A stretch of DNA of 64,000 bases, taken from contig NZ_CP046315.1 in the NCBI RefSeq assembly GCF_009730335.1, forward strand, positions 496,001 to 560,000, read 5' to 3'. Shown here piece after piece: positions 4,222-46,420 of this stretch. The DNA is from Schaalia odontolytica (lineage in GTDB: Bacteria; Actinomycetota; Actinomycetes; Actinomycetales; Actinomycetaceae). A model generated the notes under the pieces. It worked only from the letters and a program-made list of their open reading frames with translations. It ran no database searches and was not told the DNA's origin. The translations under genes were made by a program, and so were the position numbers. Each line of letters begins with the position of its first letter. Positions within the stretch are counted from its first letter, which is position 1.

Positions 4222-4266
4222 CGTCGGACACCACAATCAATCGCTTCATTTGTGAAAGGAAAGACA

Positions 4267-5391: not shown

Positions 5392-6116
5392 GTGCGGTGC
5401 TCGTCTTGAGGCTGGCGGGTCCCATGCAATCGTGGGGCGCGGACAGCCGATTCACGCGAAGGTCGACGGAGGCTTTTCCCACGAAAAGTGCGCTGGTCGG
5501 TCTGCTCGGTGCGGCACAGGGGCGCAGGCGCAGTGATCCGATCGAGGACCTCGCTGAGCTGAGCCTTGCCGTCCGAGTTGATCAACCGGGGCAGTTGCTC
5601 CACGACTTCCATACGGCGCACAGGGGCGATACGTCGATGCCCTTGTCCCACCGTTTCTACCGGGCGGATGCTGCGTTCGGAGCCTTCATCGAGGGGCCCG
5701 ACGACATGATTGATGCGCTTGCGCAGGCAATTGTTCGCCCAGTGTTCCCGCTGTACCTCGGCAGACGTTCGTGCCCTCCGACCTTGCCGCTACGTCTCGC
5801 TGTCCGGGAGGGCAACGCCTGGGACGCCGTGCGCGAAACTCCGTGGATGGCCTCGACCTACTACCAGAAGAAGCAGCGTCACGATCATTTTGTCCGGATG
5901 CGAGTCGTCGCGGATCTGGGAATTATTCCTCCCGAGGTGGAGAAAGTCGCCCAGCAGACGCTTCAGGATATGCCGATCAGTTTCGACTCGGAGAATCGCA
6001 AATACACCCTGCGTACCGTTGAGGAGACATATATCGACCTGGAGAATCCGCAGTACGTGGAGACGAAGCTGCAGGCCCACCCCGGCCTCGTGCATGATCC
6101 GATGGAGGTGCTCTGA
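5388..6116 (+). CDS. casD: Cascade subunit Cas5e/CasD
   Basis: Cas5e caps the crRNA 5' handle in Cascade. The protein is 242 residues; the N-terminal LRLAGPMQSWGADSRF and PTKSALVGLLGAAQG segments are the family signature, and WMASTYYQKK in the middle is a typical Cas5e segment. The start overlaps the casC stop (ATGA) and the stop overlaps the casE start (TGATG at 6114-6118), so translation is almost certainly coupled. Confidence 0.95.
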   Translation: MSAVLVLRLAGPMQSWGADSRFTRRSTEAFPTKSALVGLLGAAQGRRRSDPIEDLAELSLAVRVDQPGQLLHDFHTAHRGDTSMPLSHRFYRADAAFGAFIEGPDDMIDALAQAIVRPVFPLYLGRRSCPPTLPLRLAVREGNAWDAVRETPWMASTYYQKKQRHDHFVRMRVVADLGIIPPEVEKVAQQTLQDMPISFDSENRKYTLRTVEETYIDLENPQYVETKLQAHPGLVHDPMEVL

Positions 6117-6865
6117 TGTATCTGACACGCATCTACCTCAACCCGCACCGTCGTGGGGCGAAGCAGCTCATGCGCAGCCGGCAGACGCTGCACGCGGCTG
6201 TGCTGAATTGCTTCCCTCCGAGCGTGCTGGATGATCCCGGCGCACCGCGGGTTCTCTGGCGGCTGGACCGTCCGCCGGCCGTTCGGGGAGCTGCTCCTCG
6301 TCAGGGGAGTCCCTCGTGTTCTCTCTACATATCGAGCCCGGTTGCTCCGGATCCCTCGCATATCGTCGAAGAGGCTGGTTACGCGACCGAGGGCGGGGTA
6401 GTCATCCGCGACATGAGTAGTTTCCTTGAGGGGCTGTGGGCTGGGCAGCGGTGGGGTTTCCGCCTCTGCGTCAATCCGACGTTCCGGGAGGGCAGCCAGG
6501 TCAATGCACGGGGACGCAAGAAGGTTCTCGCACACGTCACGCAGGATCAGCAGACGCAGTGGGTCCTCGAACGCGCTGAGAAATGCGGGTTCAGGGTGCT
6601 CACCTCCGCTGAGCTTGGTGGCGAACTACCGGTTCTCGAGGACAGCGACGGGCAACGCGTCGACGGAGCGAATCTGCTGATCAACGGTGTTGAACGCAGT
6701 ATCGCTGAGTTTAAGCGTGGGGAGCGTCGCGTGACCCTTGGGGTCGCCACCTTCGAGGGTGTCCTTGAGGTGACAGACCCTGATGCTCTGCGCAGAGTCC
6801 TTACTCACGGAATCGGCCGAGGGAAGGCCTACGGCTGCGGCTTGATGACTTTGGCTCGGCCATGA
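6116..6865 (+). CDS. casE: crRNA-processing endoribonuclease Cas6e/CasE
   Basis: Cas6e cleaves the pre-crRNA within each repeat, below the CCCCGC/GCGGGG stem, and stays bound to the product. The 249-residue protein has the N-terminal segment with the candidate catalytic His (SRQTLHAAV, about residue 26) and the C-terminal glycine-rich motif (GIGRGKAYGCGLMTLA) that defines Cas6e. The repeats of the adjacent array have the stem expected of its substrate. It starts one base before the end of casD and overlaps cas1 by four bases. Confidence 0.95.
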   Translation: MYLTRIYLNPHRRGAKQLMRSRQTLHAAVLNCFPPSVLDDPGAPRVLWRLDRPPAVRGAAPRQGSPSCSLYISSPVAPDPSHIVEEAGYATEGGVVIRDMSSFLEGLWAGQRWGFRLCVNPTFREGSQVNARGRKKVLAHVTQDQQTQWVLERAEKCGFRVLTSAELGGELPVLEDSDGQRVDGANLLINGVERSIAEFKRGERRVTLGVATFEGVLEVTDPDALRRVLTHGIGRGKAYGCGLMTLARP

Positions 6866-18727: not shown

Positions 18728-18775
18728 AAAACGGACCGCCCGGGCCCGTGCACACATGTGCGTGGGCGCGGGCGG
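18728..18775. terminator. Large hairpin between the MscS-like gene and the EamA gene
   Basis: GGACCGCCCG (about 18733) pairs with CGGGCGGTCC (about 18770), and the interior TGCAC-ACAT-GTGC continues the stem with two mismatches. It ends a few bases before the -10 of the next gene. No T-run follows, so it may be a Rho-independent-like stop or a protein site. Confidence 0.45.
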
Positions 18776-18780
18776 TCCGC

Positions 18781-18786
18781 GACAAT
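18781..18786 (+). promoter_or_regulatory. -10 element GACAAT, leaderless promoter
   Basis: GACAAT is followed by six bases (AGAGGC) and GTG 18793. The msrB promoter at 19879 has the same hexamer and spacing. Confidence 0.5.
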
Positions 18787-18792
18787 AGAGGC

Positions 18793-19809
18793 GTGACCGC
18801 TCCCGATCCTGCCTCCCGCAATGAGATGCCCGACCTGAATCCTGCCCCTGACCAGCAGGCCGTCCTCGACCCGCAGGATGCACCCGACCAGAACGATCCC
18901 CCCGGCGGGCACGTCACTGGCGCCGACCATGCTGCCCTCGCTGCCAGGCTCGTTCTTCCGATCATCGGTATTGCTCTGGCCGGAACGATCCTGGGTGTCG
19001 CAACTCCCATCACCATTGCGTGGATGATCCTGGTCCCTGCGGCGATCGTCCTCCTCGTATGGAAACGGCCCTGGCGTCAGCGCCTCGACCTGCGTGGGCT
19101 GGGCATTGCCGTGCTCGTTGGGCTCCTGGAAGTCGGGTACGCCAGCCTCGTCTTCTCGGCGATGAACCATCTGCTCGTAGGTACCGTTGCGGTGTTCTTG
19201 ATGACCATCATCATTCCTGTTGGTGTGGTCCACGGGCGGGGGAAGCTTCGCTTCCTCAGCTTGGCTCTCGCCCTGGCGGGGCTGGTCGCGTTCGTGAGCC
19301 AGGCACCCCCGAGCACCGTTAACGGCAATGTGCAGCAGGCGAGCATGATGGCGAGTATCTTTGCTGGTCTCTCCCTGTTGCTCCTAACGGCGGTGCAGGC
19401 TGCCGTACCGCGCCTCGGCTACGACCGCGGCACGATCCGCGGGGTGGGACTCACGATCGCCGCCGCGGGATTTGGTGTGTGGGACGCCGTCTCCGGTGTA
19501 ATTCCCGCCCTGACCGGGTCTTTTATCGCGGTCATCGTTGCGGTAAGCCTCCTGATGTTCATCATTCCCGCCGTGCTGCTTCGCGTCGGCGATCAAGGGG
19601 CATATACGCGAACTGCAGCCCGCTACAACGCCTTCTACCCCGCAGTTGCGATGGTTGTCGGTGGCATCGTGCTCGGACAGGTTCCCAGCGTCCTCGATCT
19701 CCTCGGTCTCGCGCTCGTCACCGGCGCGCTCTGGATCATGTCGGGCGTGACGATCGTTCCGCGGCGCCTCTTCGGCAAGCGCGGGTCCGGAGCGGTGACC
19801 GCGGACTGA
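18793..19809 (+). CDS. EamA-like (DMT superfamily) membrane transporter
   Basis: Predicted inner-membrane transporter with about ten hydrophobic helices arranged as two repeats of five, as in EamA/RhaT proteins. The first 45 residues are Asp/Pro-rich and cytoplasmic; helices start at ALAARLVLPIIGIALAG. The motif VLLVWKRPWR closes helix 2 and recurs as LLAWKRPWR in the gene at 20309, which shows the two are paralogues. The GTG at 18793 is preferred to the upstream ATG at 18748 because it fits the leaderless -10 and the upstream part falls within a hairpin. The substrate is unknown; EamA members export amino acids, nucleosides or other metabolites. Confidence 0.75.
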   Translation: MTAPDPASRNEMPDLNPAPDQQAVLDPQDAPDQNDPPGGHVTGADHAALAARLVLPIIGIALAGTILGVATPITIAWMILVPAAIVLLVWKRPWRQRLDLRGLGIAVLVGLLEVGYASLVFSAMNHLLVGTVAVFLMTIIIPVGVVHGRGKLRFLSLALALAGLVAFVSQAPPSTVNGNVQQASMMASIFAGLSLLLLTAVQAAVPRLGYDRGTIRGVGLTIAAAGFGVWDAVSGVIPALTGSFIAVIVAVSLLMFIIPAVLLRVGDQGAYTRTAARYNAFYPAVAMVVGGIVLGQVPSVLDLLGLALVTGALWIMSGVTIVPRRLFGKRGSGAVTAD

Positions 19810-21539: not shown

Positions 21540-22784
21540 TCAGTCGAGGTTGAGCTGGCGGGGCGTGTGCTTGCCGCCGCGGGCGATCACCCAGAACGCG
21601 AACCATGCACCGGCGGAGCCGACGATCATGACGAGCACCATCGGCACGGCGCTGTCGCCGCCCGAGGTCGCCAGGGGAGCGGCGATGCCGTTCGCGATCG
21701 ACTGGAACACGCCCATGACGGACGAGGCCGTGCCCGCGTGCTCGCGCGCCTCGCTCATGGCCTGCGCGGCCGAGTTGCCGAAAATGAACGCGTTCGCCGT
21801 CATGACCAGCGCGAAGCCCATGCACGTGAGAATCAGCGGCAGGTCGAGGAGGAAGATCGAGATCGCGAGTGTCACCACGCCGGTCGCGGCGATCGTGAGG
21901 CCCGTGATGATGAGCGTGCGCGGCGTGAAGTGCGAGATCAGGCGAACGTTGACCAGAGCGAATCCGGTCGACAGCAGCGCGTTGAACGCGAACACCCATG
22001 CGAAAGCCATGGGGGACAGGCCCAGCGGGCCCTGCAGCACGTAGGTGGCGTTCGAGATGTAGCCGAACATGCAGAAGCTCGAGAAGGCGTTGGTCAGCAT
22101 GAAGCCCACGAAGGGGCGGATGCGTACGACCTGAACGAGGCCGTGGAAGAACCGTGGAATACCGCCGGGGTGGCGGCGCTCCTCGGGCAGGGATTCGTGT
22201 ACGACGAACCACGCGAGGGCCGCCATGAGCAGCGTGAAGGCGGCGAGCGCCCAGAAGACGACCCTCCACGTCGCGTGCGTGATGATGAACGCGCCGAGGA
22301 CCGGGGCGAGCATCGGCGCGAAGCCGACGATCGCCTGGAGGAGGCTCATCGCGCGAGCCAGCGTCTTGCCGTGCGCGACGTCGACGAGGATCGCGCGCGC
22401 CACCGAGGAGGCGACGCCGCCGCCGAGGCCCTGGAAGACTCGGCCAACGAGGAGCACCCAGATGTTGGGCGTGAACACGCAGATCATGGAGCCGACGAGG
22501 GCGATGATGCCGCCTGCGATGATGGGGCGGCGGCGGCCGATCTGGTCCGAGATGGCGCCGCCCAGGACCTGGCCGGACGCGTAGCCCACGAAGAAGGTTG
22601 TGAGAGTGAACCCGAGCATCGTCGAGTTCGTCGCCAGGTCCGCCGTGATCTGCGGGAACGCGGCTGAGTACATGTCGGTCGCCATCGGGGGCACGGCGTT
22701 CTGTACGGCCAGCGTGATCAGCAGGGCAACCGTGAGCGCCCCGCCGACGATCCCGCCGCGGTCCTGGGTGTCGTGACTCGTCAT
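21540..22784 (-). CDS. MFS drug-resistance transporter, Bcr/CflA type
   Basis: Twelve-helix major facilitator exporter of 414 residues. The N-terminal half has the Bcr/CflA pattern (VPPMATDMYSAAFPQI, then GQVLGGAISDQIGRRRP, the MFS loop 2-3 motif, and GRVFQGLGGGVASSVARAI). The likely role is export of drugs or small metabolites. The start ATG at 22784 is supported by a leaderless -10 (CACAAT, six bases upstream on the minus strand). It converges with the EamA gene; the next gene on the minus strand lies upstream at 22924. Confidence 0.9.
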   Translation of the reverse strand: MTSHDTQDRGGIVGGALTVALLITLAVQNAVPPMATDMYSAAFPQITADLATNSTMLGFTLTTFFVGYASGQVLGGAISDQIGRRRPIIAGGIIALVGSMICVFTPNIWVLLVGRVFQGLGGGVASSVARAILVDVAHGKTLARAMSLLQAIVGFAPMLAPVLGAFIITHATWRVVFWALAAFTLLMAALAWFVVHESLPEERRHPGGIPRFFHGLVQVVRIRPFVGFMLTNAFSSFCMFGYISNATYVLQGPLGLSPMAFAWVFAFNALLSTGFALVNVRLISHFTPRTLIITGLTIAATGVVTLAISIFLLDLPLILTCMGFALVMTANAFIFGNSAAQAMSEAREHAGTASSVMGVFQSIANGIAAPLATSGGDSAVPMVLVMIVGSAGAWFAFWVIARGGKHTPRQLNLD

Positions 22785-22790
22785 GATGTG

Positions 22791-22796
22791 ATTGTG
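22791..22796 (-). promoter_or_regulatory. -10 element CACAAT, leaderless promoter
   Basis: On the minus strand CACAAT is followed by CACATC and then the ATG at 22784, again a six-base gap. Confidence 0.5.
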
Positions 22797-22923: not shown

Positions 22924-23997
22924 TCACTCCTCGTCGTTGCTCGCCTCCAGCGCGTCCGCCGCGGCCTCGATCTCCTCGCGCGTCGGGCAGGAGGCCGGCC
23001 CGACGACCGTCGTGGACAGGGCGCCCGCGCAGTTGGCGAGGAGGAGTGCCTGCTCGGTGGGAATACCCTGAGCGAGGGAGGCCGCCAGGACTCCGGAATG
23101 CGCGTCGCCCGCGCCGTTCGTGTCGATCGCCTTGACGCGAGGCGTCGGGACATGGATCACGTCCTCATTGCGGGCATTCGGGGCTGTCCCGGCGGGGAGC
23201 ACAAAGTATGCGCCCTCGGCTCCCGCGCGCACGAGAACGGGGCGATCCAGCACAGCGAGCACCCCTTGAGCCACCTCGCGAGGCTGGTCGCATCGGTTGC
23301 GAACGCTCGCATGGCCTCTCTGGTGAACGATCTCCTGAGCCTCCCTGTGGTTCATCGAGACGATGACGTCGTCAGAGGGCAGTCCCTCCGGGATTCCAAT
23401 GACAGGGGAGACATCCAAGACGACGTGTACGCCCTCGGGGAGGGCGCGCAGCGCTGCCTCCGCAGCCTCGCGGTTCGCGGGGTGGTCCATCAGGTAGCCG
23501 TCAACGTAGAGCACATCCCCTGGATTCATCGTGCGCACGAAGTCTGCCCACGCGCTCGCGGGTGCCATCGTCTCGGCGCCCTTTGTGGAGATGAAGGTGC
23601 GCTCGCCCGTGCGGTCCGTGAACGCGATGCAGAACCCGTTGTCAATGCCCGTCACGCGAGGCCCGAGGTCAGTGATCCCCTCGTGCGTCAGCGCCGCTTG
23701 GATGAGAGAGGAGTAGGGGCCGTCGCCGATTGGGCTGAGGGAGACGGCCTCGGCCCCCATGCGCCGCGCCGCCACGAGGGCGTTGAAGCCGCCGCCCACG
23801 TGCATTCCCTCGTCGATGGCCCACACGTCACCACCCGGCGAGGGCAGAGCCTCGCCGCGCACGGCGAGGTCCACGAGGATCTGCCCCATGAGGACGACCC
23901 GCCCGACAGGACCGTTCCCGTTGGTTGAACCGCGACCGCAGGGAGGCGTCGGTTGTGCGTCCGGAATTGGATGGGTGGTATCAGAGAGCGGAATCAT
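22924..23997 (-). CDS. PfkB-family sugar kinase (kinase half of unit D)
   Basis: Ribokinase-like (PfkB) kinase of 357 residues that would phosphorylate a sugar or nucleoside with ATP. The N-terminal PfkB region reads RVVLMGQILVDLAV, then GGGFNALVAARRMGAEAVSLSPIG; the C-terminal signature DTNGAGDAHSGVL (about residues 292-304) contains the anion hole and catalytic Asp. The first 30 residues are a Pro/Gly-rich linker. It starts 11 bases after the preceding gene, with GAGGAGA as ribosome site. The linker and the neighbouring frame indicate that this is the detached kinase half of a fourth ADP-ribosylglycohydrolase-kinase unit. Both kinase signatures are intact, so it may be active. The substrate is not deducible. 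Confidence 0.85.
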   Translation of the reverse strand: MIPLSDTTHPIPDAQPTPPCGRGSTNGNGPVGRVVLMGQILVDLAVRGEALPSPGGDVWAIDEGMHVGGGFNALVAARRMGAEAVSLSPIGDGPYSSLIQAALTHEGITDLGPRVTGIDNGFCIAFTDRTGERTFISTKGAETMAPASAWADFVRTMNPGDVLYVDGYLMDHPANREAAEAALRALPEGVHVVLDVSPVIGIPEGLPSDDVIVSMNHREAQEIVHQRGHASVRNRCDQPREVAQGVLAVLDRPVLVRAGAEGAYFVLPAGTAPNARNEDVIHVPTPRVKAIDTNGAGDAHSGVLAASLAQGIPTEQALLLANCAGALSTTVVGPASCPTREEIEAAADALEASNDEE

Positions 23998-24008
23998 GCT
24001 GTTTCTCC

Positions 24009-26867
24009 TCAGTTGGATGTCGCATCATCGGAGACGTGCACCCGCCGTTCGACGAGGCGCTCGGCCAGGGGAGCTATGCCCGGGTGGGAAACCCTCTCGA
24101 TGGTGGCGAGGTCGTCGGGAGAGAACATCGTGATGCCGCAAATCGCCCCTTGAACGGCGCTGGAAATCGCCGCGATCAAACTTGTCTCCCCGCCGAGGAT
24201 AGCGGCGTTGGTAGCGGCGAAGCGTGATTCGCTCTTGTCAACGAGTGCGAAGGCAGCAGGAACCGACTGCGTCGGATCCGCAGACGTGCCGATCGATTCG
24301 CGCAGGCGCTCGTATATGTCGTCACCGAAGTGGAGGACAATGCCAATCGCCTTGCACGTCGCTTGCAGCACGTCAGGCCCGCTGCTCGCGGAACCATGCG
24401 GGGGAAGATCGGCCACGTAGTTGATGACTTCTTGCAGGAAAGAAACGATTCCACTGGCCCTGTAGTTTTTCTTGTCAATGCCCAACGAGATTGCCGCGGC
24501 GACGAGAGCGGCGGCCTGGAACTCCTGCCGGGTGAGGTTCTCGTTTCCGCAGGCCTGCCACACGGCCTCCGCGAAGGCCTCGGGATCTGTCGTCACGGTC
24601 GCGATGCCCACCGGAATAGCGCGCAGGACGTAGCGAGAACCCGCCAGCTCATCACCCGCACGGTCCTTGGCCTCGCCCCTGAGAGGGGAGGTGCCTTCCG
24701 AGAGTAGCGCCGATGATGACGCGAGAACCTCGCTCGTGACAGCAGTGAGTGTTCCCGCGGGTGCTCCTGGCATCGCGGGGTGCGAGGTGGGCGCATCCTT
24801 CAGAGAGGAAGACCGATGGTAGAGCTCCTGAACCTGCTCCGTCGGCATACCCATAGCGGGAATGCCGATTGCGTCGCCGAATACGACTCCCGCCAGGGCC
24901 CCGAGGGCGCGGGCACGGCGCTCCAGCTCAACATCGTCTCGCTCTGGCAGGGCGCGAGCCGAGGCCTCGATCTGTTCGCGCGTGGGGCACGAGGCCGGAC
25001 CGGGCATCGTCGAGGCCAAGGCCCCCGCGCAGTTTGCAAGGATGATGCTTCGCTCTATTGCGTTCCCCTCAGCGAGGGCGGACGCGAGGGCTCCCGTCCA
25101 GACGCTGTACGCCCCGTCGTGGTCGGTGGACACGACGGTAGGGGCATGGAAACGGGTTCGTGGCTCGCTCGCCTCGTCCGTCGCGTGGCGCGGTCGCGCG
25201 AGGAAGGACTCGTACGTCATCGTGCTGATGAGCGCGGAACGATGGAAGAGGGACAGGATGAAGCTCGCGGCGTGAGCAGGGACGCGGGAGGCATCGAAGG
25301 CAGTGCGATCAGACATAAAGCGCATGCCCAAGGGCTCCACCGACCCCTGGTCCAGCACCATCAGCACGTTATCGTTCGGAAGAGAACGCGGACCGATGAA
25401 AGCTCCCGACACGTCCAGGACGACGCGCACGTGACGGGGGAGGTGGGCCAACGCATGCTCGGCCGCCGCTAGAACAGGCGGGTTGTCTTCGATGCTCGCG
25501 TCGATGTAGAGCACGTCGGAGCGACCCAAAGTGCGGATGACCTCGTCCCATGCGTCCTCGGGCATGCCGCTGATCCTGGCGTTCTTATATCCCCCGGCCT
25601 GCGTGGTGACGGGTGAAGCAAAGCCGTTGTCGCACCGAGTGACGCGCGGACCCGCGTCGATGATCCCTTCGCGTGCCAGGGCATCAGCGATGATCGAGGC
25701 CCGGGGACCCTCGCCGATCGGACTGAGGGAGACGACCTCCACCCCCATGGCGCGTGCTGCGCGCATCGCCGGGAAGGGGCGTGCGAGGTGGACGCCCTCA
25801 CGGGTCGACCACTCAGCGCCTGTGGGAATGCGCTCATCTTTGGTACGTCGGTCGAATCGCAGCATCAGTTCAGACATGATGATGACCCGGCCAGACGACG
25901 CCCCTGCAGCGTTGGAATCCCGCGGTTCATCGGCGCTCTGGTCATCGGCATCGGCGCGGGTGGACGCACCAGATTCAGACGCCTCGAAGGGGGAAGGGTC
26001 ACGCCGGGGCACGCGCGGAATGGCGTCGCCCAGCGCTCGACGGATCCAGTCGATGGGAGCCGGAGGGTACAGTTCGAGGAGCTGGCCGGCAATCCCCAGC
26101 CAGTCCACGTGAACGTCCTCAGAACATTGTGCGAGATCGAGATCCGAGAGTACTCCGCTGGGTGCAAAGACCCCAGAAAGCGTCTCCGCAACCGCCTCGC
26201 ACAGCGCCGGTGAGCCGCTCAACGCGAAGCACTTCGAGGCCTCGTCGGCGCCTTGTGGAGAGGCGGCCAAGAAGAAAGCGAGCGGAACGATCCGGCTGGA
26301 GGGAGTGCAGTCTGACAGCGTTTCCTGAAGTACAGGCGTGGGCGACGAGCGCAGATCCGATTGGGTATTGGCAACCGCCTTCAGGGTGCGCTGGGCCACC
26401 TCGAGCACGTCCGCGCCGCCGTCTTCTTCGCCGCGCGGGGACACCGCGCTCACGACATCAACCGCGTCCCACAGGGTGTCGATGTGGGAGCGACGTTGGG
26501 TATTGATGCCGATGGACACCGCAGCAGCAAGAAGTGCGGCGGACTGGAACTCGTTCCGGTTCGTGCACCCGCACGCAAACCATACGGTCTCGGCAAAGGC
26601 CTCGAGGTCGACCGTCGACAGTGCGATGCCGACCGGAATCGCACACAGGAGGCGAGCATCCGCGCTCGCGGCGGGGGTTGACCAACGTCCGGAGCGAATG
26701 CTGCGCAGGCCGTCTGGGGCTTTCATGAGTCGCGTGGCAACGGCTATCGCCGATGTTACGACCGCGCCGACGGGCCTGTTGGGCACCTCGAGCGTGGCCG
26801 AATGTGCTGCGTCTGCGCGGGCCAAGCCTGCCAGCGCACCAAGAGCGTAGGGGAGTCGTAGATCCAT
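24009..26867 (-). CDS. Three-domain ADP-ribosylglycohydrolase-like/PfkB-like/ADP-ribosylglycohydrolase-like protein (units C + D-N)
   Basis: A 952-residue protein with three regions: residues 1-285 resemble ADP-ribosylglycohydrolase (ALGALAGLA start, CAIPVGIALSTVDLEAFAE), 326-640 resemble PfkB kinase (GRVIIMSELML, SPIGEGPRASII, CPTREQIEASA) and 652-952 resemble ADP-ribosylglycohydrolase again (ALGALAGVVFGDAIGIPAMG, IPVGIATVTTDPEAFAE). Metal-binding signatures are lost: the first region lacks GDA(L/I)G, TDDT and GGDTDT (FALSGSPALCEAV there instead); the third keeps GDAIG but has TAVTSE for TDDT and GGETSL for GGDTDT. The kinase region has TDHDGAYSVW in place of the NGAGD motif. All three are therefore probably inactive. 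The joint near residue 648 (base 24,920) looks like a fusion of two tandem units. Ribosome site AAGGAG precedes ATG 26867. Confidence 0.8.
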   Translation of the reverse strand: MDLRLPYALGALAGLARADAAHSATLEVPNRPVGAVVTSAIAVATRLMKAPDGLRSIRSGRWSTPAASADARLLCAIPVGIALSTVDLEAFAETVWFACGCTNRNEFQSAALLAAAVSIGINTQRRSHIDTLWDAVDVVSAVSPRGEEDGGADVLEVAQRTLKAVANTQSDLRSSPTPVLQETLSDCTPSSRIVPLAFFLAASPQGADEASKCFALSGSPALCEAVAETLSGVFAPSGVLSDLDLAQCSEDVHVDWLGIAGQLLELYPPAPIDWIRRALGDAIPRVPRRDPSPFEASESGASTRADADDQSADEPRDSNAAGASSGRVIIMSELMLRFDRRTKDERIPTGAEWSTREGVHLARPFPAMRAARAMGVEVVSLSPIGEGPRASIIADALAREGIIDAGPRVTRCDNGFASPVTTQAGGYKNARISGMPEDAWDEVIRTLGRSDVLYIDASIEDNPPVLAAAEHALAHLPRHVRVVLDVSGAFIGPRSLPNDNVLMVLDQGSVEPLGMRFMSDRTAFDASRVPAHAASFILSLFHRSALISTMTYESFLARPRHATDEASEPRTRFHAPTVVSTDHDGAYSVWTGALASALAEGNAIERSIILANCAGALASTMPGPASCPTREQIEASARALPERDDVELERRARALGALAGVVFGDAIGIPAMGMPTEQVQELYHRSSSLKDAPTSHPAMPGAPAGTLTAVTSEVLASSSALLSEGTSPLRGEAKDRAGDELAGSRYVLRAIPVGIATVTTDPEAFAEAVWQACGNENLTRQEFQAAALVAAAISLGIDKKNYRASGIVSFLQEVINYVADLPPHGSASSGPDVLQATCKAIGIVLHFGDDIYERLRESIGTSADPTQSVPAAFALVDKSESRFAATNAAILGGETSLIAAISSAVQGAICGITMFSPDDLATIERVSHPGIAPLAERLVERRVHVSDDATSN

Positions 26868-26882
26868 TCTCGTTTCTCCTTG

Positions 26883-28850
26883 TCAGGCCTGATCGCGGCT
26901 CTTTAGTCCAGTGGCCGCCGTCTCGATAGCGTCTCGAGCGGACAGTGAGGTCAGGGTCCCCAGAGCAGCCGCGCAATTGGCCAGCAGGACCCCTCGTTCG
27001 GCACTCATGCCCAGCGCGAGGCAGGCTGCCAGCGTTCCGGAATGAACGTCCGCCATTCGCTCGGCCCTGACCGTTGGGCTGAACGGAGGTCCCGGAACCC
27101 GCGTGAGAGAAGGGGACAGAATGCGGGCGTCATCCAGCGTGGGGCGAACGAACAGCGCCTCGTTGTCGGCGTTGCGCAAGACGATGTGGCGTTCGCTGAG
27201 CAGGCAGAGAGCTGTTGCCTGATGCTCGGGCCGGTCGTTGTAACGCGCGAGAGAAGAATCCACGCCGAAATGCTCCCTGAATGTCGTATGGTTGCCGACT
27301 CGTAGCGACACGAGAACATTGTCGAGGGGGAGATTGCCGGGGACGCCCTCGTCCGATGCCCCGTCGAATACGACGCGCACGTGTTCGGGAAGTCCTCGTA
27401 GGGCCTCGTTCAAGGCTTGTGCCGTGGGCTCGTGTCCCATGAGAGCCCCATCGATCCACAGGATGTCCGAGGGACCCAAGGCCTGGAGGGATTCCGCCCA
27501 CTCGCGCGATGCCAGGGAGGGAAGTGGGGTGGTCGTCGAGAGGGTCATATGCCAGTCGCTATTGGTCCCGCGCAGGATCATGCGGTACCCCTCGTCGGCA
27601 GAGAACTGGAGGCGGTATCCGTTATCCACTCCGCTCAGGTGAGGGCCCGCGTCGATGATGTTCATACGTCGCAGGGCCTGCGCGATGATCCGCGCGTTGG
27701 GCCCCTGCCCGATTGGGCACAGCGAGACGACCTGAGCGCCCATGTGGCGAGCCGCCTCCATGGCCCTGTAACAACCTCCCGCGGTCCACCCGCGGTCCGA
27801 CGCCCACACGTGTTCCCCGAATTCTGGGTACTTGTGCCCGTGCATGATGTGGTCAGCGAAGAGTTCGCCGAGGAAAACGACGCGTCCGAGCTGAGCGTCG
27901 GCGCGGAGCGCCTTGAGGGATACGTGTGGGGCTACGGAGGGGAAGTAGCGTTGGCGCGTGTTCTCGCCAGAATCGGTGTCCTCGAACGAGGAGGGGCCCG
28001 ACGGTGCGATCGGGCACGAGGGCCCGTCAGGGACGAGGGGATCGCCCGGGTAAGGGACCCGGCAGGAGAGAATTCTCTTCGCGTTCTCATTCGGATCAAA
28101 TCGGAGGGATTCCTCGACCATGCGTGCCCCGTAGGAGCGTAGGAAATCTGCGCCCCGCACCGCTCCGACCAGGGCGCATGCGGTGGAAAGGATTGTGCTT
28201 GAGTGAACCCCTAGCCGAAGGGGAGAGGTCAGGATGCGGCGGTCCTGGTAGCGGGAGGCCAGGGCGAAGGTCATGGGAACGATCTGCGAGAGCGAATCGC
28301 CCGCACCGATCTCCTCGACGAGACGCTCAAGGGGCGACTCGGCGCTTGCGTTCATGTCGCTGACGATGTTCATTGCCCTGCGCGTCGCGGCTACGACGTC
28401 AGGCTCCGGGCTCCACTCTCCGCGTGGCTCCAACGACGCAGCGACATCGATAGCGCGGACCAGGGTGTCTTCGACGCTAAGGTTCGGGCTGTCGAGGCCG
28501 AGCGAAACAGCTGCTGCGACCAGTGTTGCCGCCTGAAACTCCCGGCAATGTGGTTCCTCGTCCTCGCAGTAGTTCCATACGGCGTCTGCGAAGGCCTGCC
28601 GGCCGCAGGTTGACGTGTATGAGCCAGCCTGGGCGGCGTGGACCAGCAGCTGAGCCAACCGGTGGGATGACAACTTCATGGAGGGGAACGAGGGCTTTTC
28701 TGCGGAATTTTGGAGCCTCAGCAGCGCGAGGATGCGCTCGCTGAGGCTTGCCGCCTCGTTGCCGTTCTCGACCAAGGTATCCATCGTGAGGACGTGGTCG
28801 AAAGCGAATCCGATCGTGGGCCCCTGGGCGCGGTCAAGACGTGGGTCCAT
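26883..28850 (-). CDS. ADP-ribosylglycohydrolase-like/PfkB-like fusion, probable pseudoenzyme (unit B)
   Basis: A 655-residue protein aligned end to end with unit A. Residues 1-260 are the ADP-ribosylglycohydrolase-like half: the Pro/Ala core is recognisable (CGRQAFADAVWNYCEDEEPHC and FQAATLVAAAVSLGL) but the N-terminus (GFAFDHVLTMDTL) has lost GDALG and TDDT, and LGVHSSTILSTACALVGA replaces the GGDTDT helix. Residues 320-655 are PfkB-like (GRVVFLGELFADHIM, SLCPIGQGPNARII) with AERMADVHSG in place of NGAGDAHSG, so the catalytic Asp context is lost. It begins three bases after the unit A stop, implying translational coupling. The long undamaged frame argues for a retained, non-catalytic role. 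Confidence 0.8.
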   Translation of the reverse strand: MDPRLDRAQGPTIGFAFDHVLTMDTLVENGNEAASLSERILALLRLQNSAEKPSFPSMKLSSHRLAQLLVHAAQAGSYTSTCGRQAFADAVWNYCEDEEPHCREFQAATLVAAAVSLGLDSPNLSVEDTLVRAIDVAASLEPRGEWSPEPDVVAATRRAMNIVSDMNASAESPLERLVEEIGAGDSLSQIVPMTFALASRYQDRRILTSPLRLGVHSSTILSTACALVGAVRGADFLRSYGARMVEESLRFDPNENAKRILSCRVPYPGDPLVPDGPSCPIAPSGPSSFEDTDSGENTRQRYFPSVAPHVSLKALRADAQLGRVVFLGELFADHIMHGHKYPEFGEHVWASDRGWTAGGCYRAMEAARHMGAQVVSLCPIGQGPNARIIAQALRRMNIIDAGPHLSGVDNGYRLQFSADEGYRMILRGTNSDWHMTLSTTTPLPSLASREWAESLQALGPSDILWIDGALMGHEPTAQALNEALRGLPEHVRVVFDGASDEGVPGNLPLDNVLVSLRVGNHTTFREHFGVDSSLARYNDRPEHQATALCLLSERHIVLRNADNEALFVRPTLDDARILSPSLTRVPGPPFSPTVRAERMADVHSGTLAACLALGMSAERGVLLANCAAALGTLTSLSARDAIETAATGLKSRDQA

Positions 28851-28853
28851 CGT

Positions 28854-30959
28854 TCAGTCCTCCTGCTCGGCCAGTGCGTCTGCTGCGGTCTCGATCTGGG
28901 CTCGGGGTGGGCATGTTGCGGGCCCCGCTGCGGTTGATGCCAGGGCTCCCGCGCAGTTGGCCAACAGGAGCGCCCGTTTGAGGGAGACCCCTTGCGTCAG
29001 GCAGGCGGAGAGAACGCCTGAGTGGGCATCGCCAGCGCCGTTGCTGTCGACGGCCCGGATTCTCGGGGTTGGGATATGGAAGGTGGGCAGAGCATCCGAG
29101 GGGGCATACGGTGCGAAGTAAGCGCCGTTCGCATCCTTATGGACGAGTACGTCGCGGTGAAGTCGCGAGGCCAACGTTGTTGCCGCGTTATCTGCTGGCG
29201 TCCAGGAGAGAAACTGTCGTTCCTTCTCTGGAATCCTGGTCCACAGAACCTGCGATTCCTCGTAGTTCATGGAGATGATGGCGCTCGAGGGCAGTCCGTT
29301 CGGGATACCGATGGTGGGGGAGACGTCGAGGACGACTCGTACGCCCTCGGGCAGGGCGCGCAGGGCATTCTCTGCGGCAATCCTGTTGGCAGGATGATCC
29401 ATCAGGGACCCATCGATATACAGCACATCCACGGGGTGCAACGAGCACACATAGTTTGCCCATACGTTCTCAGGTGCCATCGCCTCCGCGCCCTTCGTCG
29501 CGATGATCGTGCAGCTGCCGTTGCGCGCAATGAGCACGGTGCGCATAGCGTTGTCGCAGTCTGGAACCCGCGGGCCTGCGTCGACGATTCCCTCTCGCTT
29601 GAGGGCCTCCTCGATCAGCGAGGCGTTCGGGCCGTCACCGATCGGGCTGAGGGAGATGGCCTCGGCTCCCATGCGGCGAGCGGCCACGAGGGCGCTGAAA
29701 CCAGCCCCAACGTGTATGCCCTCATCTGTGCCCCGCCCAGAGCCGCCGCCGTATATCGGCCCGGTGCCCTGCAGGACCCGGTCCACGAGGATCTGGCCCA
29801 TGAGGACCACGCGGCCCGCGGGGGAGGCAGGCGACGAGGTGGGGGCTGGCTCCTCCGGAGAAGTGACGCCGCGCGAAACCTCGGGCCTGGCGTCTGAAGA
29901 GGCATCCGTTGCAGCGTCCTCCGGGCGCCCGACAAGCGCCTGATCGCGCAGCGCCAGGAGATCCCCGGCGACGCTGGACAGGCCGAGGTGGGAGATCTCC
30001 TCGATCATCGAGAGGTTGTCTGTGGGGAGAACCTCGACCCCGAGGGCCGCGCCCAGGATTGCGCCCGCGATCGCGCCGATTGTGTCGGTGTCCCCGCCGA
30101 TGTTGGCGGCGTCCAGGAGGGCCTGCGGGGAGGGATCTCGCGCGAGCAGCGCGAAGGCCATAGGGATCGCGTGCGCCGAGGCCACGGATGTTCCCACCTG
30201 TTCGACGAGGCATTCCAGGGATGAGGAGGCGGGGTTGACGGCCAGCTGCATGGCCCTGCGCGTCGCGGCAATGACGTCCGGGTCTGGGGTCCACGCGCCG
30301 CGATCGGGGAGGGAATCGACGTAGGTGAGGGCCTTCCACAGCAGGCCCCTCAGATCCAGGGATGGTGAGCGCGTCGCGTCAATACCCATGGATACGGCTG
30401 CCGCCACGAGGGCAGCCGACTGGAAGCCCTGTCGCGTCGCGTGCGTGACCCGGCACGACGACCACACGGCCTCGGCGAAGGCCTCCGGATCCTCCGTCGA
30501 GACCGCAATACCGATCGGGGTGACGCGCATCGCCGCGCCGTTTGTGGTGCCCTCGCCGCCTACGGTCAGCGGGTCCTCGCCCGCGCGCACGCGCTCGAGT
30601 GCCGCCTTCGTTGAGGGGCCCAGCAGGTCGAGTGACCCTCGCTCGATCATTGAATCCTCCCAGGCCAGCAGGGCGTGGGCGAACTCGACCGCATTGAGGG
30701 CAACGCGACCCGAGGACGAGCCCCGGCTTCGTATTAAGAGGGACGCGACCAGCAGCGCCTGTTCCGTGTCGTCCGTGACCGACCCCGCCGGCATCCCCGG
30801 CGCGTAGGGCTGGGAGGCGTCGCCGTCGACGAGGCCGGTGATGCGCCCGTACACCGCGCGGATCTGCGCAGGTGACATCTCCTGCGTCGGCATGCCCAGC
30901 GCGTCTCCGAGCGCCAGGCCGGCCAGGGCGCCATGCGCGTGAGAAAGACGAGGATCCAT
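28854..30959 (-). CDS. Bifunctional ADP-ribosylglycohydrolase-PfkB kinase fusion (unit A)
   Basis: A 701-residue two-domain protein. Residues 1-345 are an ADP-ribosylglycohydrolase with all three metal-site signatures: LALGDALGMPTQE (about 15-27), SVTDDTEQAL (60-69) and NIGGDTDTIGAIAGAILGA (286-304). A Pro/Ser linker (350-380) leads to a PfkB kinase (GRVVLMGQILVD at 382; DSNGAGDAHSGVL at 638-650). The family removes ADP-ribose from proteins or cleaves related glycosides; the kinase would phosphorylate the released sugar or a nucleoside. That coupling is inference. Start ATG 30959 is preferred to the longer frame because GGAGGTG stands six bases upstream. It is first in an operon with units B, C and D and follows tRNA-Lys by 69 bases on the same strand. 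Confidence 0.87.
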   Translation of the reverse strand: MDPRLSHAHGALAGLALGDALGMPTQEMSPAQIRAVYGRITGLVDGDASQPYAPGMPAGSVTDDTEQALLVASLLIRSRGSSSGRVALNAVEFAHALLAWEDSMIERGSLDLLGPSTKAALERVRAGEDPLTVGGEGTTNGAAMRVTPIGIAVSTEDPEAFAEAVWSSCRVTHATRQGFQSAALVAAAVSMGIDATRSPSLDLRGLLWKALTYVDSLPDRGAWTPDPDVIAATRRAMQLAVNPASSSLECLVEQVGTSVASAHAIPMAFALLARDPSPQALLDAANIGGDTDTIGAIAGAILGAALGVEVLPTDNLSMIEEISHLGLSSVAGDLLALRDQALVGRPEDAATDASSDARPEVSRGVTSPEEPAPTSSPASPAGRVVLMGQILVDRVLQGTGPIYGGGSGRGTDEGIHVGAGFSALVAARRMGAEAISLSPIGDGPNASLIEEALKREGIVDAGPRVPDCDNAMRTVLIARNGSCTIIATKGAEAMAPENVWANYVCSLHPVDVLYIDGSLMDHPANRIAAENALRALPEGVRVVLDVSPTIGIPNGLPSSAIISMNYEESQVLWTRIPEKERQFLSWTPADNAATTLASRLHRDVLVHKDANGAYFAPYAPSDALPTFHIPTPRIRAVDSNGAGDAHSGVLSACLTQGVSLKRALLLANCAGALASTAAGPATCPPRAQIETAADALAEQED

Positions 30960-31028
30960 GCTGCACCTCCAGCGCGGGCGCGCGCCCGCAGATAGCGTGA
31001 ACGCCCCGGAAAATCCCGAGGCGACCAG

Positions 31029-31100
31029 TAGGCCCAGGGGGACTCGAACCCCCAACCTACGGATTAAAAGTCCGCTGCTCTACCATTGAGCTATAGGCCC
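31029..31100 (-). tRNA. tRNA-Lys(TTT)
   Basis: Read on the minus strand: acceptor GGGCCTA / TGGGCCT with G-T pairs, D-arm TAGCTCAATGGTAGAGC, anticodon loop CTTTTAA giving TTT, T-loop GGTTCGAGTCC, discriminator A. Lies directly upstream of the ADP-ribosylglycohydrolase-kinase operon. Confidence 0.96.
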
Positions 31101-33328: not shown

Positions 33329-33766
33329 CTACAGGCCCGACTCCTTCACCGACGAGGTGAGCTTCGAATGATCCAACGGACGCGCCAGGCACACGATCGA
33401 TCGATCGTTTTGCGCCCACGAATCCTTCGTCGGGATCATCCACGTTGCGTCGAGCGACGAGGTCAGGTAATCCGACCCCACGTACGCGTCGAACGCGGAA
33501 ATGCACTCGGTCTCGGCCTGCCGGTTGAGCGCCTCGGCGCCCGGGAAATCCCCGTCCGGCGCGGACGCCAAGGCGAAGACCTCAGCGTCGTGCTCGCCCG
33601 TGCAGCTGGTCTTATCGATCGTCGTCGCCGTGGTCGCGCTCTTATCCTCCGGCAGGAGGATGCACTGCCCGACTCGCATGTGCATGACGGACGAATCCGA
33701 GCATGCCGCGAGCGGGGCGGCGGCAAGAGCCACTACCGCAGCTGTCACGACGAAGCGACCACGCAT
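33329..33766 (-). CDS. Septum-formation-like lipoprotein
   Basis: A 145-residue secreted lipoprotein: Arg-containing n-region, hydrophobic core VVTAAVVALAAAP and lipobox LAAC at about residue 22. The mature part has the C..HDAEVFA pattern and paired cysteines seen in the actinobacterial septum-formation (DUF/PF13845-type) domain. The family is named for a Mycobacterium protein and its biochemical role is unclear. The start overlaps the stop of the phosphate transporter (ATGA), so it is the last gene of a DUF47-pit-lipoprotein operon. Confidence 0.7.
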   Translation of the reverse strand: MRGRFVVTAAVVALAAAPLAACSDSSVMHMRVGQCILLPEDKSATTATTIDKTSCTGEHDAEVFALASAPDGDFPGAEALNRQAETECISAFDAYVGSDYLTSSLDATWMIPTKDSWAQNDRSIVCLARPLDHSKLTSSVKESGL

Positions 33767-34830
33767 CAGTGAACTCCCAGAGGCAGCGCCACGACGAGGT
33801 ACACGATGCCTGACACCAGGGCGGCGGCCGGCAGGGTGAGGAACCACGCGATGACGATGTTGCCCGCGACGCCCCAGCGAACCGCCGAGAAACGCTTCGT
33901 GCAACCCACACCCATGATCGCCGTCGACACGACCTGCGTCGTCGAGATGGGGGCGTGAATGACGTAGGAGCACAGGTACAGGATCGAGGAGGACACGGCC
34001 TCGGCCGTGAAGCCGCGAGCCGGATCCAGGTCGATGATCTTACGGCCGATCGTACGCATGATGCGTCCGCCGCCGGCCATCGTGCCCAGCGAAATCGCCA
34101 GAGCACCCGAGACCTTGACCCACAGCGGCACGTTCATCTCGCCCGTGATGGGATCGAGGATGTTGTGGTGCTCGCCGTAGCCGCCGGCCAGCAGCGCCAT
34201 GACGATGATGCCCATCGTCTTCTGCGCGTCCTGGATGCCGTGGCCCAGAGCCATGGCCGCCGAGGAGAAACGCTGAGCGGCGCGGAAGCGGCGCATCGTG
34301 CGGTGATACTGCGCCTTGCGCAGCGCCCACAGCACGATCTTCATGGCGATGTAGCCGATGACGAAACCGATGATGGGGGAGGCGAACATCGGGATCACGA
34401 CGTGGCTCATGATGCCCCACCAGTGCACGACAGTGCCGCTCATGAGGCCCGCGCCCACCATGCCGCCAATGAGGGCGTGCGAGGAGGACGAGGGGAGTCC
34501 GAACCACCAGGTGATCAGGTTCCAGATACAGGCGCCCAGCAGGGCGGCCAGGATAATGACCAGGCCCTTTTGCTGCATCTCCACCATGGGAGACTCGGCA
34601 TAGTCGCTGATCGAAATAATGCCTTTGCCGACAGTCTTTGCGACGGCCGTGCCCATCATGGCGCCGATGACGTTCATCGCTGCGGCCATGAGGAGCGCCG
34701 CGCGAGGAGTCCACGCGCGCGTCGACACGGAGGTCGCGATCGCGTTCGCCGCGTCGTGGAAGCCGTTGGTGTAGCTGAAGAACAGCGCGACGGCGATGAC
34801 GACGCAGACGAGGATCAGATTCAGATCCAC
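33766..34830 (-). CDS. pit: Low-affinity inorganic phosphate transporter, PiT family
   Basis: A 354-residue membrane protein with the two PiT signatures: YTNGFHDAANAIATSVSTRA near the N-terminus and the inverted C-terminal copy (GAGLMSGTVVHWW region and GVGCTKRFSAVRWGVAGNIV). It imports phosphate, usually as a metal-phosphate complex, driven by the proton gradient. It starts three bases after its DUF47 partner and overlaps the lipoprotein gene at its end. Confidence 0.93.
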   Translation of the reverse strand: MDLNLILVCVVIAVALFFSYTNGFHDAANAIATSVSTRAWTPRAALLMAAAMNVIGAMMGTAVAKTVGKGIISISDYAESPMVEMQQKGLVIILAALLGACIWNLITWWFGLPSSSSHALIGGMVGAGLMSGTVVHWWGIMSHVVIPMFASPIIGFVIGYIAMKIVLWALRKAQYHRTMRRFRAAQRFSSAAMALGHGIQDAQKTMGIIVMALLAGGYGEHHNILDPITGEMNVPLWVKVSGALAISLGTMAGGGRIMRTIGRKIIDLDPARGFTAEAVSSSILYLCSYVIHAPISTTQVVSTAIMGVGCTKRFSAVRWGVAGNIVIAWFLTLPAAALVSGIVYLVVALPLGVH

Positions 34831-37878: not shown

Positions 37879-38868
37879 GTGGCCGAATACCTCACAGATG
37901 CGGAACTCGCCCAGGCGAAGGACATGCTCAACCGCATAACCATGATCTACCAGGCGAAAGTTGTCGGGCAGGAGGATCTGCGGACGGCGCTGACGGCATG
38001 CCTGCTGGCAGGCGGTCACGTCCTGGTCGAGTCGGTGCCCGGTCTGGCCAAGACCACCGCAGCCCAGACTTTGGCCTCGGCGGTGTCGGGAACGTTCCAC
38101 CGGATCCAGTGCACGCCGGACCTCATGCCCAACGACATCGTTGGATCTCAAATCTGGAACCAGGCCTCGGGTGAGATGGTCACCCAGCTGGGACCCGTCC
38201 ATGCGAACCTGGTCCTGATGGACGAGATCAACCGTTCCAGCGCGAAGACTCAGTCCGCGATGCTGGAGGCAATGCAGGAAGGGCAGACGACGATCGGCGG
38301 AGTCAACCACCGCCTTCCCCGCCCGTTCATGGTGATGGCCACCCAAAACCCCATCGAAGAGGAGGGAACGTACGTCCTCCCCGAGGCGCAGATGGACCGT
38401 TTCCTGCTCAAGGAGATCATCACCTACCCGGCCCCCGTCGAGGAGCTTGAGGTCCTTGAACGCATCGACTCGGGAGTGATGAGCCTGCCCACCTCCTCCG
38501 AGCCCGTGTCCATCACGGACGTGCTGCTGCTCCAAGACCTGACGCGACGCATCTACGTGCACAGCACGCTCAAGGCGTACATCGTCGACATCATCAACAC
38601 CACGAGGGGCGCCGGACCCAATCCGCTGCCGGGTTGGACCAAGCACGTGCGTGTGGGCGCCTCGCCGCGAGGCGCCATCGCACTCATGCAGATATCCCAG
38701 GCGCTGGCCCTCATGGATGGGCGCAACTACGTGGTTCCCGACGACATCAAGAAGCTGCGCTACGGCATCCTGCGGCACCGTATCATTCGTACCTTCGATG
38801 CCCTCGCCGACAACGTGTCGGTGGAGGGGCTCATCGACGCGGTGTTCAACGCGGTTCCGGTGCCGTGA
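37879..38868 (+). CDS. MoxR-type AAA+ ATPase
   Basis: MoxR ATPases act as chaperones for metal-ion or VWA-protein maturation. The 329-residue protein has a variant Walker A (ESVPGLAKTTAAQ), Walker B (LVLMDEINRSS), sensor 1 (MATQNPIEEEGTY) and sensor 2 (GASPRGAIAL). The start is a GTG at 37879 with TAGGAGA upstream; a longer in-frame start at 37741 falls in the pckG terminator. It is followed by a DUF58 gene, and with it forms the first part of a Bat-type operon whose other genes resume at 45908. Confidence 0.93.
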   Translation: MAEYLTDAELAQAKDMLNRITMIYQAKVVGQEDLRTALTACLLAGGHVLVESVPGLAKTTAAQTLASAVSGTFHRIQCTPDLMPNDIVGSQIWNQASGEMVTQLGPVHANLVLMDEINRSSAKTQSAMLEAMQEGQTTIGGVNHRLPRPFMVMATQNPIEEEGTYVLPEAQMDRFLLKEIITYPAPVEELEVLERIDSGVMSLPTSSEPVSITDVLLLQDLTRRIYVHSTLKAYIVDIINTTRGAGPNPLPGWTKHVRVGASPRGAIALMQISQALALMDGRNYVVPDDIKKLRYGILRHRIIRTFDALADNVSVEGLIDAVFNAVPVP

Positions 38869-38908
38869 CGGGGGCGCTCGTGGACCGGCGATCACCAGGA
38901 GAACCAGC

Positions 38909-39802
38909 ATGCCAGTGAGGTCGCGTGAGATCCACGCACTGTCGACGCGGATCCAGTTGCCCGTCCTGCGCAAGCTGCTGTCCGTCATGGAGGGGCAGCA
39001 TTCGGCGCTGAGGTGGGGCCGTGGCTGGGAGTTCATGGACCTGGCGCCCTACCAGCCCGGTGACGACGTTCGCGAAATCGACTGGGCGGCGACGGCACGC
39101 ACTGGTTCGCCGGTCATCAAGAGGCACGAGGCCACGGCGAACCTGCAGGTTATGCTCGTCGTCGACACGGGCCGCGAAATGGGCGCTCTCGCCCCGTCGG
39201 GCGAGTCCAAGGAAGAGGTCGCCCTCACCGCATGCGAGGCGATCGCATGGCTGAGCGTGGCGCGCGGAGACCAGATCGGCCTCGTCGCCGGTGACGCCGA
39301 GCGCGTGCGCTTCATGCCTGCCCGATCCGGCAACGCCCACGCCGAAACCATCATGCGCCGCATCGAGGAGGACATCACGCTGTCCTCCCCGCACTCGGAT
39401 GTGCCCAAGCTCCTGGCGCGCGCGCGGACGGTGACCCGACGCCGCAGCCTCATCGTCATCGTCACGGACGCAACCCAGCCCGAGCCGACGCGTCTGTCCG
39501 ATGACATCATCAAGTCGCTGAGCGTGCGCCATCAGGTCATCCAGGTGTCGGTGGCCGACATGAATCCGGCGGATATTGACCAGGATAAAACCGTTATCGA
39601 CGTCAACGAGGGGCCCCTTCCGGACTTTCTGCGCAGGGACGAACAGCTGGCCCGCGAGGCGAGCATGGTTGTTGAGCAAAGGCGCGCCGCTGTCGCGCAC
39701 ATGCTTGACATGCGCGGCGTCATCCAGGTGAGCGTGGGCTCCTCGGAGGAGGTTCCGCGGGCGCTGCTCAGGGCGCTGCAGCGCTCGGGAGCCCGCAGAT
39801 AA
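38909..39802 (+). CDS. DUF58 domain protein
   Basis: A 297-residue protein with the DUF58 hallmark YQPGDDVREIDWAATART followed by VIKRHEA, and a VWA-like fold with LMVVDTGREMG-type strand (here MLVVDTGREMG) instead of a full MIDAS. These proteins accompany MoxR and VWA proteins. Start ATG 38909 has CAGGAGAACC upstream. The next gene is a pilin in a separate cluster, so the usual downstream partners are displaced. Confidence 0.9.
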   Translation: MPVRSREIHALSTRIQLPVLRKLLSVMEGQHSALRWGRGWEFMDLAPYQPGDDVREIDWAATARTGSPVIKRHEATANLQVMLVVDTGREMGALAPSGESKEEVALTACEAIAWLSVARGDQIGLVAGDAERVRFMPARSGNAHAETIMRRIEEDITLSSPHSDVPKLLARARTVTRRRSLIVIVTDATQPEPTRLSDDIIKSLSVRHQVIQVSVADMNPADIDQDKTVIDVNEGPLPDFLRRDEQLAREASMVVEQRRAAVAHMLDMRGVIQVSVGSSEEVPRALLRALQRSGARR

Positions 39803-45907: not shown

Positions 45908-46420
45908 ATGTCCGGTAACCTCATTGAAGGCCTTCAAGAACCCGTCATATACCCCCACTGGATGTGGATCTTGGGGGTCGCACTGCTCCTCGCCGTCCTC
46001 GGCTGGGTAGCGTACAGTCTGTGGGCCTGGTGGCACTCACGCGAGGGCAGCGTCACTCACCTGCAGACCATCTCCCAGGCCAGGCGGGCCCGATACCACG
46101 ACTACGTCAACCAGATCGCCCAGCGCCGCGCCTGCGGAGAACTTGACGAGCGCGGAACCCACCTGGCGGTGGCCGGCCTCATGCGCGCCCTCGGCACCGA
46201 GCGCTCCGGCCGCGACCTCGAGGTGGCCACCGTCGCGGAGATCCGCGCCCTCGTCCCCACCTGGCCCCAGCTGGCTCTCGTCCTGGAGGCCTGCGAGACG
46301 CCGAGCTTCATCGGCGAACGCGCCGATGGCGCCGCTGGGGGACCCTCCCTGCCCGGCGGCGCACAGGGGGCGGGCGGCACCGACATCCTGATCCTTGCCT
46401 CGCAGGCGGTAGACGCATGA
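45908..46420 (+). CDS. DUF4381-like membrane protein of Bat-type operon
   Basis: A 170-residue protein with one N-terminal membrane helix (WILGVALLLAVLGWVAYSLW) and a cytoplasmic helical domain. Size, topology and position before two VWA genes match the short DUF4381-type component of MoxR/VWA operons, but sequence similarity cannot be verified here. It overlaps the next gene by four bases (ATGA). Confidence 0.6.
   Translation: MSGNLIEGLQEPVIYPHWMWILGVALLLAVLGWVAYSLWAWWHSREGSVTHLQTISQARRARYHDYVNQIAQRRACGELDERGTHLAVAGLMRALGTERSGRDLEVATVAEIRALVPTWPQLALVLEACETPSFIGERADGAAGGPSLPGGAQGAGGTDILILASQAVDA

Follow-up and report, generated by a model that had tools for sequence, protein, structure and literature searches.

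A tandem row of ADP-ribosylglycohydrolase-PfkB kinase units in Schaalia odontolytica retains inactive paralogues around one intact pair

Results

The window analysed here, a stretch of 64,000 nucleotides from Schaalia odontolytica (G000:C1:496001-560000), carries on its minus strand four head-to-tail units, A to D, each combining an ADP-ribosylglycohydrolase (ARH) domain with a PfkB-type kinase domain (Table 1). A first-pass annotation of the sequence had described four homologous two-domain units in tandem; Pfam and hhalign showed both the coordinates and the architecture to be correct. The four array genes are separated by 3, 15 and 11 bases, and each has a purine-rich Shine-Dalgarno sequence before its start codon (GGAGG ahead of the ATG of unit A). 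Arrays of at least two units occupy this site in 6 of 35 genomes of the genus (the window genome, G012, G023, G024, G026 and G031), genomes without a fetched locus being judged solely by sequence matches. An assembly artefact is unlikely, since the window's own genome of 2.43 Mb consists of a single contig and other genomes have arrays as well.

Table 1. Coordinates of the array, its parts and the adjoining genes in the window.
Feature	Position	Strand	Remarks
Whole array, four ARH plus PfkB units, head to tail	22924-30959	-	
Unit A, ARH fused to PfkB kinase, 701 aa	28854-30959	-	Pfam, motif alignments
Unit B, inactive ARH plus inactive PfkB kinase, 655 aa	26883-28850	-	Alignments, hhalign, codon test
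Gene encoding unit C plus D hydrolase, 952 aa	24009-26867	-	
Unit C, inactive ARH plus inactive PfkB kinase	24933-26867	-	Leading two thirds of the 952-aa gene; its inner edge is approximate
Hydrolase half of unit D, fused behind unit C	24009-24932	-	Boundary approximate
Unit D kinase, separate gene, 357 aa	22924-23997	-	Both kinase motifs kept
tRNA-Lys(TTT), directly upstream of unit A	31028-31100	-	Syntenic marker in many relatives
Bcr/CflA-type major facilitator superfamily (MFS) transporter, directly downstream of the array	21540-22796	-	TIGR00710, 234.2 bits (cut-off 200.9)

Unit A scores above the Pfam gathering cut-offs for both families (PF03747, 203.3 bits, E 8.5e-60, cut-off 26.2 bits; PF00294, 84.1 bits, E 1.4e-23, cut-off 25.8 bits), as does the D kinase for PF00294 (124 bits, 1e-35). 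The protein that joins unit C to the D hydrolase reaches 42.9 bits for PF03747 (6.3e-11), the strongest part of the match lying in the D half, and 21.3 bits, below the cut-off, for PF00294. Unit B matches no Pfam family at E<=1, so it falls short of the PF03747 cut-off and has no PF00294 match; it does show sub-threshold ribokinase matches (1.5e-4 and 1.2e-3), and the B units of G031 and G024 score 23 and 19 bits for PF03747, under the cut-off. Profile-profile comparison with hhalign aligned both domains of units B and C with the active two-domain protein (100%, E 1.3e-82 for B; 100%, E 4.8e-115 for C). No equivalog assignment was obtained: unit A scored 73 of the 337.05 bits required for DraG (TIGR02662) and 50.8 of 490 for Tri1 (NF041672), and both unit A (68.1 bits) and the D kinase (96.6 bits) missed the ribokinase cut-off of 299.65 bits (TIGR02152).

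Active-site motifs were compared in alignments of 41 ARH and 38 kinase domains. Outside the arrays, TDDT, TNG.AMR and DTDT are kept in 20 of 20 ARHs, and GGxxN-type plus NGAGD-type motifs in 17 of 18 kinases, the exception being a truncated sequence from a fragmentary genome. Within the six arrays, all tested motifs are kept in 6 of 21 ARHs and 6 of 20 kinases, and every one of the six holds exactly one fully motif-intact ARH and one such kinase. The intact kinase is the first of the row in G023, G024, G026 and G031, and the last in the window array and G012. In the window, TDDT, TNGAAMR and GGDTDT are intact in the unit A ARH. The central block of the B ARH, with TDDT and DLLGPSTK, is missing, the B and C kinases have lost both kinase motifs, and the D ARH keeps GDA but not TDDT or GGDTDT. 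The stretch around DLLGPSTK is absent from all 15 inactive ARHs, the B ARHs also lacking the TDDT stretch. The NGAGD aspartate persists in the window's own B and in the C kinase of G012; other B and C orthologues have various residues there. These alignments bear out the motif pattern of the first-pass annotation (kept in A, lost in B and C, TDDT and GGDTDT lost from the D ARH, NGAGD kept in the D kinase), with a qualification for the A kinase, which had been taken as intact: NGAGD is kept, but the substrate-site motif is GAGFSA instead of the GGGFNA or similar found in active relatives. The D kinase is thus the only kinase of the window array with both GGxxN and NGAGD. In a predicted structure of unit B, compared with a list of kinases, the kinase half keeps the ribokinase fold, the model superposing on ribokinases.

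Selection on the inactive copies was assessed with one-omega codon models on fixed trees, omega being read from a grid and averaged over sites, with inactive sets of 3 to 6 sequences; G010, too fragmentary to rank among the arrays, was excluded from these sets. Neutrality (omega=1) was rejected for every inactive domain set tested, with 2dlnL of 171-360 over all orthologues and best omega values of 0.15-0.25. It was also rejected for B and C within the closest three genomes (2dlnL 21-117, best omega 0.1-0.4). Active domain sets gave omega values of 0.1-0.15. The B and C frames are open in all five genomes found to carry them. Thus neither neutral dN/dS nor frequent frameshifts, the two signs by which the first-pass annotation would have recognised B and C as pseudogenes, was found, and the codon tests reject decaying pseudogenes. 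Units B and C and the D ARH are retained pseudoenzymes, as had been proposed for B and C: their motifs are lost and selection is kept, with the fold predicted for the B kinase half. Being under selection, the inactive copies probably do a job other than catalysis.

Among 213 genomes of the family, a B orthologue (full-length profile match) occurs in five, all within the window's genus. The composition of the arrays varies: A, B and C are present in G031; D is full-length but inactive in G024 and G026; the D kinase is missing from G023; and in G012 the A ARH, C kinase and D ARH lie in one frame, followed by the D kinase. The G012 contig begins inside unit A and ends before the tRNA, so that earlier units are possible there. 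In G058, labelled as the same species, a single gene joins the hydrolase side of A to the kinase of D, and the surrounding DNA matches the window over 10.6 kb at 96.7% on the A-hydrolase side and 6.5 kb at 95.1% on the D-kinase side; the block from the A kinase to the D hydrolase is missing. G020 is in the same state. Such blocks are thus common to several species and present or absent within one, and what had been read as a graded loss within one strain is instead an array that is old and shared: close relatives may have its block, lack it or carry it rearranged. Of 18 loci compared, 13 have the MFS gene next to the array or the single unit, and the flanks are syntenic where visible. Array-related records include Schaalia sp. 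ORNL0103, Actinomyces sp. HPA0247 and one labelled Sanguibacter keddieii 250_SKED; the loci under the last title (L040 and L046, G012) were placed in the window's genus, and the record is probably misnamed.

Trees of the ARH and kinase domains, midpoint-rooted and with long branches that may join the kinase B and C clades falsely, contain clades that span species. The B ARHs of five genomes and the C ARHs of five form clades (100/100 each), as do the D ARHs (96/86), the B kinases (100/100) and the C kinases (100/100). The window's A kinase groups with array A kinases (99/94), and its D kinase with the kinase half of the G058 single-copy gene (100/99). Unit D had been described as split; its hydrolase is indeed fused to the end of C and its kinase is a separate gene, but it is not simply a split fourth unit, because that kinase groups with the single-copy kinase and the hydrolase belongs to an inactive array lineage. 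Apart from a few forks, support is mostly low (34-56) in a tree built from five flanking genes.

Synonymous divergence (dS by NG86, high values being near saturation) sets most of the array apart from its flanks. Between the window and G023, dS is 0.08-0.18 for five flanking genes, 0.53 for the A ARH and 1.00-1.34 for the six other shared array domains. The corresponding values are 0.15-0.31, 0.47 and 0.93-1.44 against G024, and 0.23-0.70 (one flanking gene at 0.70), 0.43 and 1.13-1.41 against G031. Against G012, two flanking genes give 0.20-0.25, the A ARH 0.31 and the D kinase 0.44; the C kinase and D ARH reach 0.83 and 0.92 only, which weakens the case for a divergence unique to the array. 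When G024, G026 and G031 are compared with one another, the B and C domains (dS 0.06-0.34) mostly do not exceed the flanking genes (0.23-0.63), and a fast intrinsic clock is therefore disfavoured as the source of the deep divergence. We read this pattern as that of old haplotypes, which would have passed between lineages via recombination in the flanks.

A control over the whole window used genes chosen by a greedy rule on low dN/dS; where a fetched stretch lacks the orthologue, tblastn may have picked a paralogue as its nearest match. Median dS was 0.16 against G023 (17 non-array genes, maximum 0.87), 0.04 against G058 (29 genes, maximum 0.15), 0.32 against G026 (23 genes, maximum 1.12) and 0.44 against G024 (25 genes, several above 1). 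Besides the flanking gene at 0.70 against G031, other places detract further from the uniqueness of the array: gene 45908-46420, at 0.87 against G023 and 1.12 against G026 (B there 1.01), and the cas genes at 3331-6865 and gene 38633-39802, each with dS of at least 1.0 against G024. With a few genes diverged to the same extent against other genomes, the array belongs to the window's most diverged loci but does not stand alone.

Some of these neighbours deserve mention in their own right. The product of 45908-46420 (+), 170 aa, has no Pfam match at E<=0.001; the gene adjoins two VWA-domain genes and is the most diverged non-array gene against G023 (59% identity). The CRISPR-associated genes (+ strand), with dS above 1 against their nearest G024 matches and 0.01-0.04 against G058, include Cse2 (3331-4221, +) and a CT1975-like gene (4252-5391, +) by Pfam, and would be of type I-E. 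Gene 33329-33973 (-), beside a pit phosphate transporter gene, varies in copy number: in L041, L042, L043, L047 and L049 the site holds between two and four diverged relatives of its product side by side. One of two EamA-like genes, 18748-19809 (+), is strongly diverged in G023 and G024 (63% identity) and could not be found in some loci, L041 and L042 among them.

The context of ARH and kinase genes was compared over 27 loci. One open reading frame (ORF) cluster lies between or beside the two genes in 11 of them, and all four members checked are NCS1-type permeases (PF02133); a second occurs in 6 of the 27, both members checked being GntR plus UTRA proteins. Some relatives have the full layout GntR - ARH - NCS1 permease - PfkB. 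Three loci of another genus of the family (L090, L091 and L092, from G093, G072 and G078) carry ARH-kinase fusions; in L090 and L092 a gene of the NCS1-permease cluster comes after the fusion, as Pfam confirmed for L090. The fusion is therefore older than the window's genus or arose more than once.

Discussion

We tentatively favour, at somewhat less than an even chance, the view that the locus encodes a salvage-type enzyme pair together with non-catalytic paralogues kept as working proteins, most likely as partner subunits. Its core would be one ARH N-glycohydrolase and one PfkB sugar or nucleoside kinase, from which old tandem duplication would have given rise to the non-catalytic paralogues. 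Because the GntR, NCS1 permease and PfkB context in relatives resembles yegW-yegTUV of E. coli, the active pair probably salvages a small N-riboside: after uptake, the N-glycosidic bond of the ribosyl compound would be cleaved and the ribosyl product phosphorylated. Sharing a fold and a tight gene row with the active unit, the inactive ones would join it as structural or regulatory subunits, most likely via their kinase domains, and might adjust how active or how specific it is. The stretch from the A kinase to the D hydrolase would be inherited as one piece and carried from lineage to lineage through homologous recombination within the conserved flanks.

Several points weigh against this salvage and partner-subunit reading. 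Deep, exchanged haplotypes are more typical of conflict loci than of metabolic enzymes. Nor is the array indispensable: G058 (of the same species by label) and G020 have a single unit. The transporter at the window site is of the Bcr/CflA efflux type, not NCS1, and no Bcr/CflA MFS gene was found beside the G026 array in the 18-locus comparison. As for the E. coli model, one paper states that no gene of yegW-yegTUV had a clear function as of 2024, and links the yegTUV operon to glycogen accumulation, with ADP-glucose as a suggestion (PMC10819704); in a transport study, YegT moved none of gemcitabine, uridine, cytidine and xanthosine (PMC11241209).

Those haplotypes, together with the role of ADP-ribosylglycohydrolases as immunity proteins elsewhere, make a conflict locus the main rival, possible though in our judgement unlikely. 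The row would then be a homogeneous poly-immunity or decoy array, whose extra units bind or absorb an attacker that uses ADP-ribose or ribosyl chemistry (a competitor effector or phage factor), selection keeping divergent haplotypes. Catalysis would be unnecessary for this; the genes form a single tight row, present or absent within one species, and array haplotypes are deeper than the neighbours against G023 (dS 1.0-1.3 as against a median of 0.16 and a maximum of 0.87 over 17 genes). According to one survey, ADP-ribosylglycohydrolases are known as immunity proteins and tandem poly-immunity loci vary between strains of one species (PMC3482391). The metabolic-type operon of relatives argues otherwise, as do omega values below 1 throughout and the absence of any match to the four array proteins in the PADLOC defence library at E<=0.01. 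A related proposal, which we rate equally doubtful, is a pseudoenzyme array that is polymorphic: balancing or frequency-dependent selection would maintain deep haplotypes of the inactive block, from the A kinase to the D hydrolase, around one catalytic pair that always stays intact, and the dead units would serve as specificity or decoy subunits that can replace one another.

It is less probable still that B, C and the D ARH have become new enzymes or binding proteins, with other chemistry or as free ligand sensors, independent of A. Strong selection after loss of the old motifs and the predicted ribokinase fold of B would suit such a role; the old kinase catalytic position, the NGAGD aspartate, is however variable among B and C orthologues. 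Slow decay of duplication remnants, without present function and refreshed by recombination, is already disfavoured and seems very improbable. The frequent rearrangement and fusion, the absence of the array from sister genomes and the lower third-position GC content (GC3) of most inactive units (0.67-0.82 vs 0.80-0.94 in the flanks) would fit decay, but the D units of G024 and G026 depart from this with GC3 of 0.80-0.86, the rejection of omega=1 extends to all inactive domains tested, B and C included in the closest three genomes, their frames are open in five of five carriers, and ribosome-binding sites are retained.

ARH-PfkB tandem arrays and ARH pseudoenzymes were not found among the matches listed by searches of an open-access library, as judged by titles and abstract openings. 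To our knowledge, bacterial pseudoenzymes have mostly been described singly. The component families are known; their arrangement here, with inactive ARH-PfkB paralogues conserved in a row about a single intact pair, was not met among those matches. In several species, selection maintains a whole row of pseudoenzymes next to one active pair, and natural single-copy controls exist, one of them in the same species, which makes the purpose of the dead paralogues approachable by strain comparison. For S. odontolytica XH001, a saturated library of transposon mutants has been reported (PMC12369343). The array could also offer a handle on yegUV-type pairs of ARH and kinase.

The closest known counterpart is the yegW-yegTUV group of E. 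coli (the GgaR regulon), which combines an ARH (YegU), a PfkB-type kinase (YegV), a transporter (YegT) and a GntR regulator (PMC10819704). There, single separate genes are found, and their own functions are unsettled, whereas the window has several copies of an ARH-kinase fusion, most of them inactive, beside a Bcr/CflA MFS transporter. Homogeneous poly-immunity loci (SUKH and others) share the tandem diverged paralogues and the variability within species (PMC3482391); the window units, in contrast, are large two-domain proteins of metabolic type. With DraG, ARH3 and Tri1 unit A has PF03747 and its motifs in common, and ARH3 and DraG are among its PDB sequence matches, yet it lies far below the DraG and Tri1 equivalog cut-offs, its kinase is fused, and the motifs are missing from three of the four window ARH domains. 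The kinases resemble ribokinase and PfkB proteins in PF00294, in the GGxxN and NGAGD of the D kinase and in the superposition of the B kinase model on ribokinases; they differ in that none reaches the ribokinase equivalog cut-off and the B and C kinases lack both motifs.
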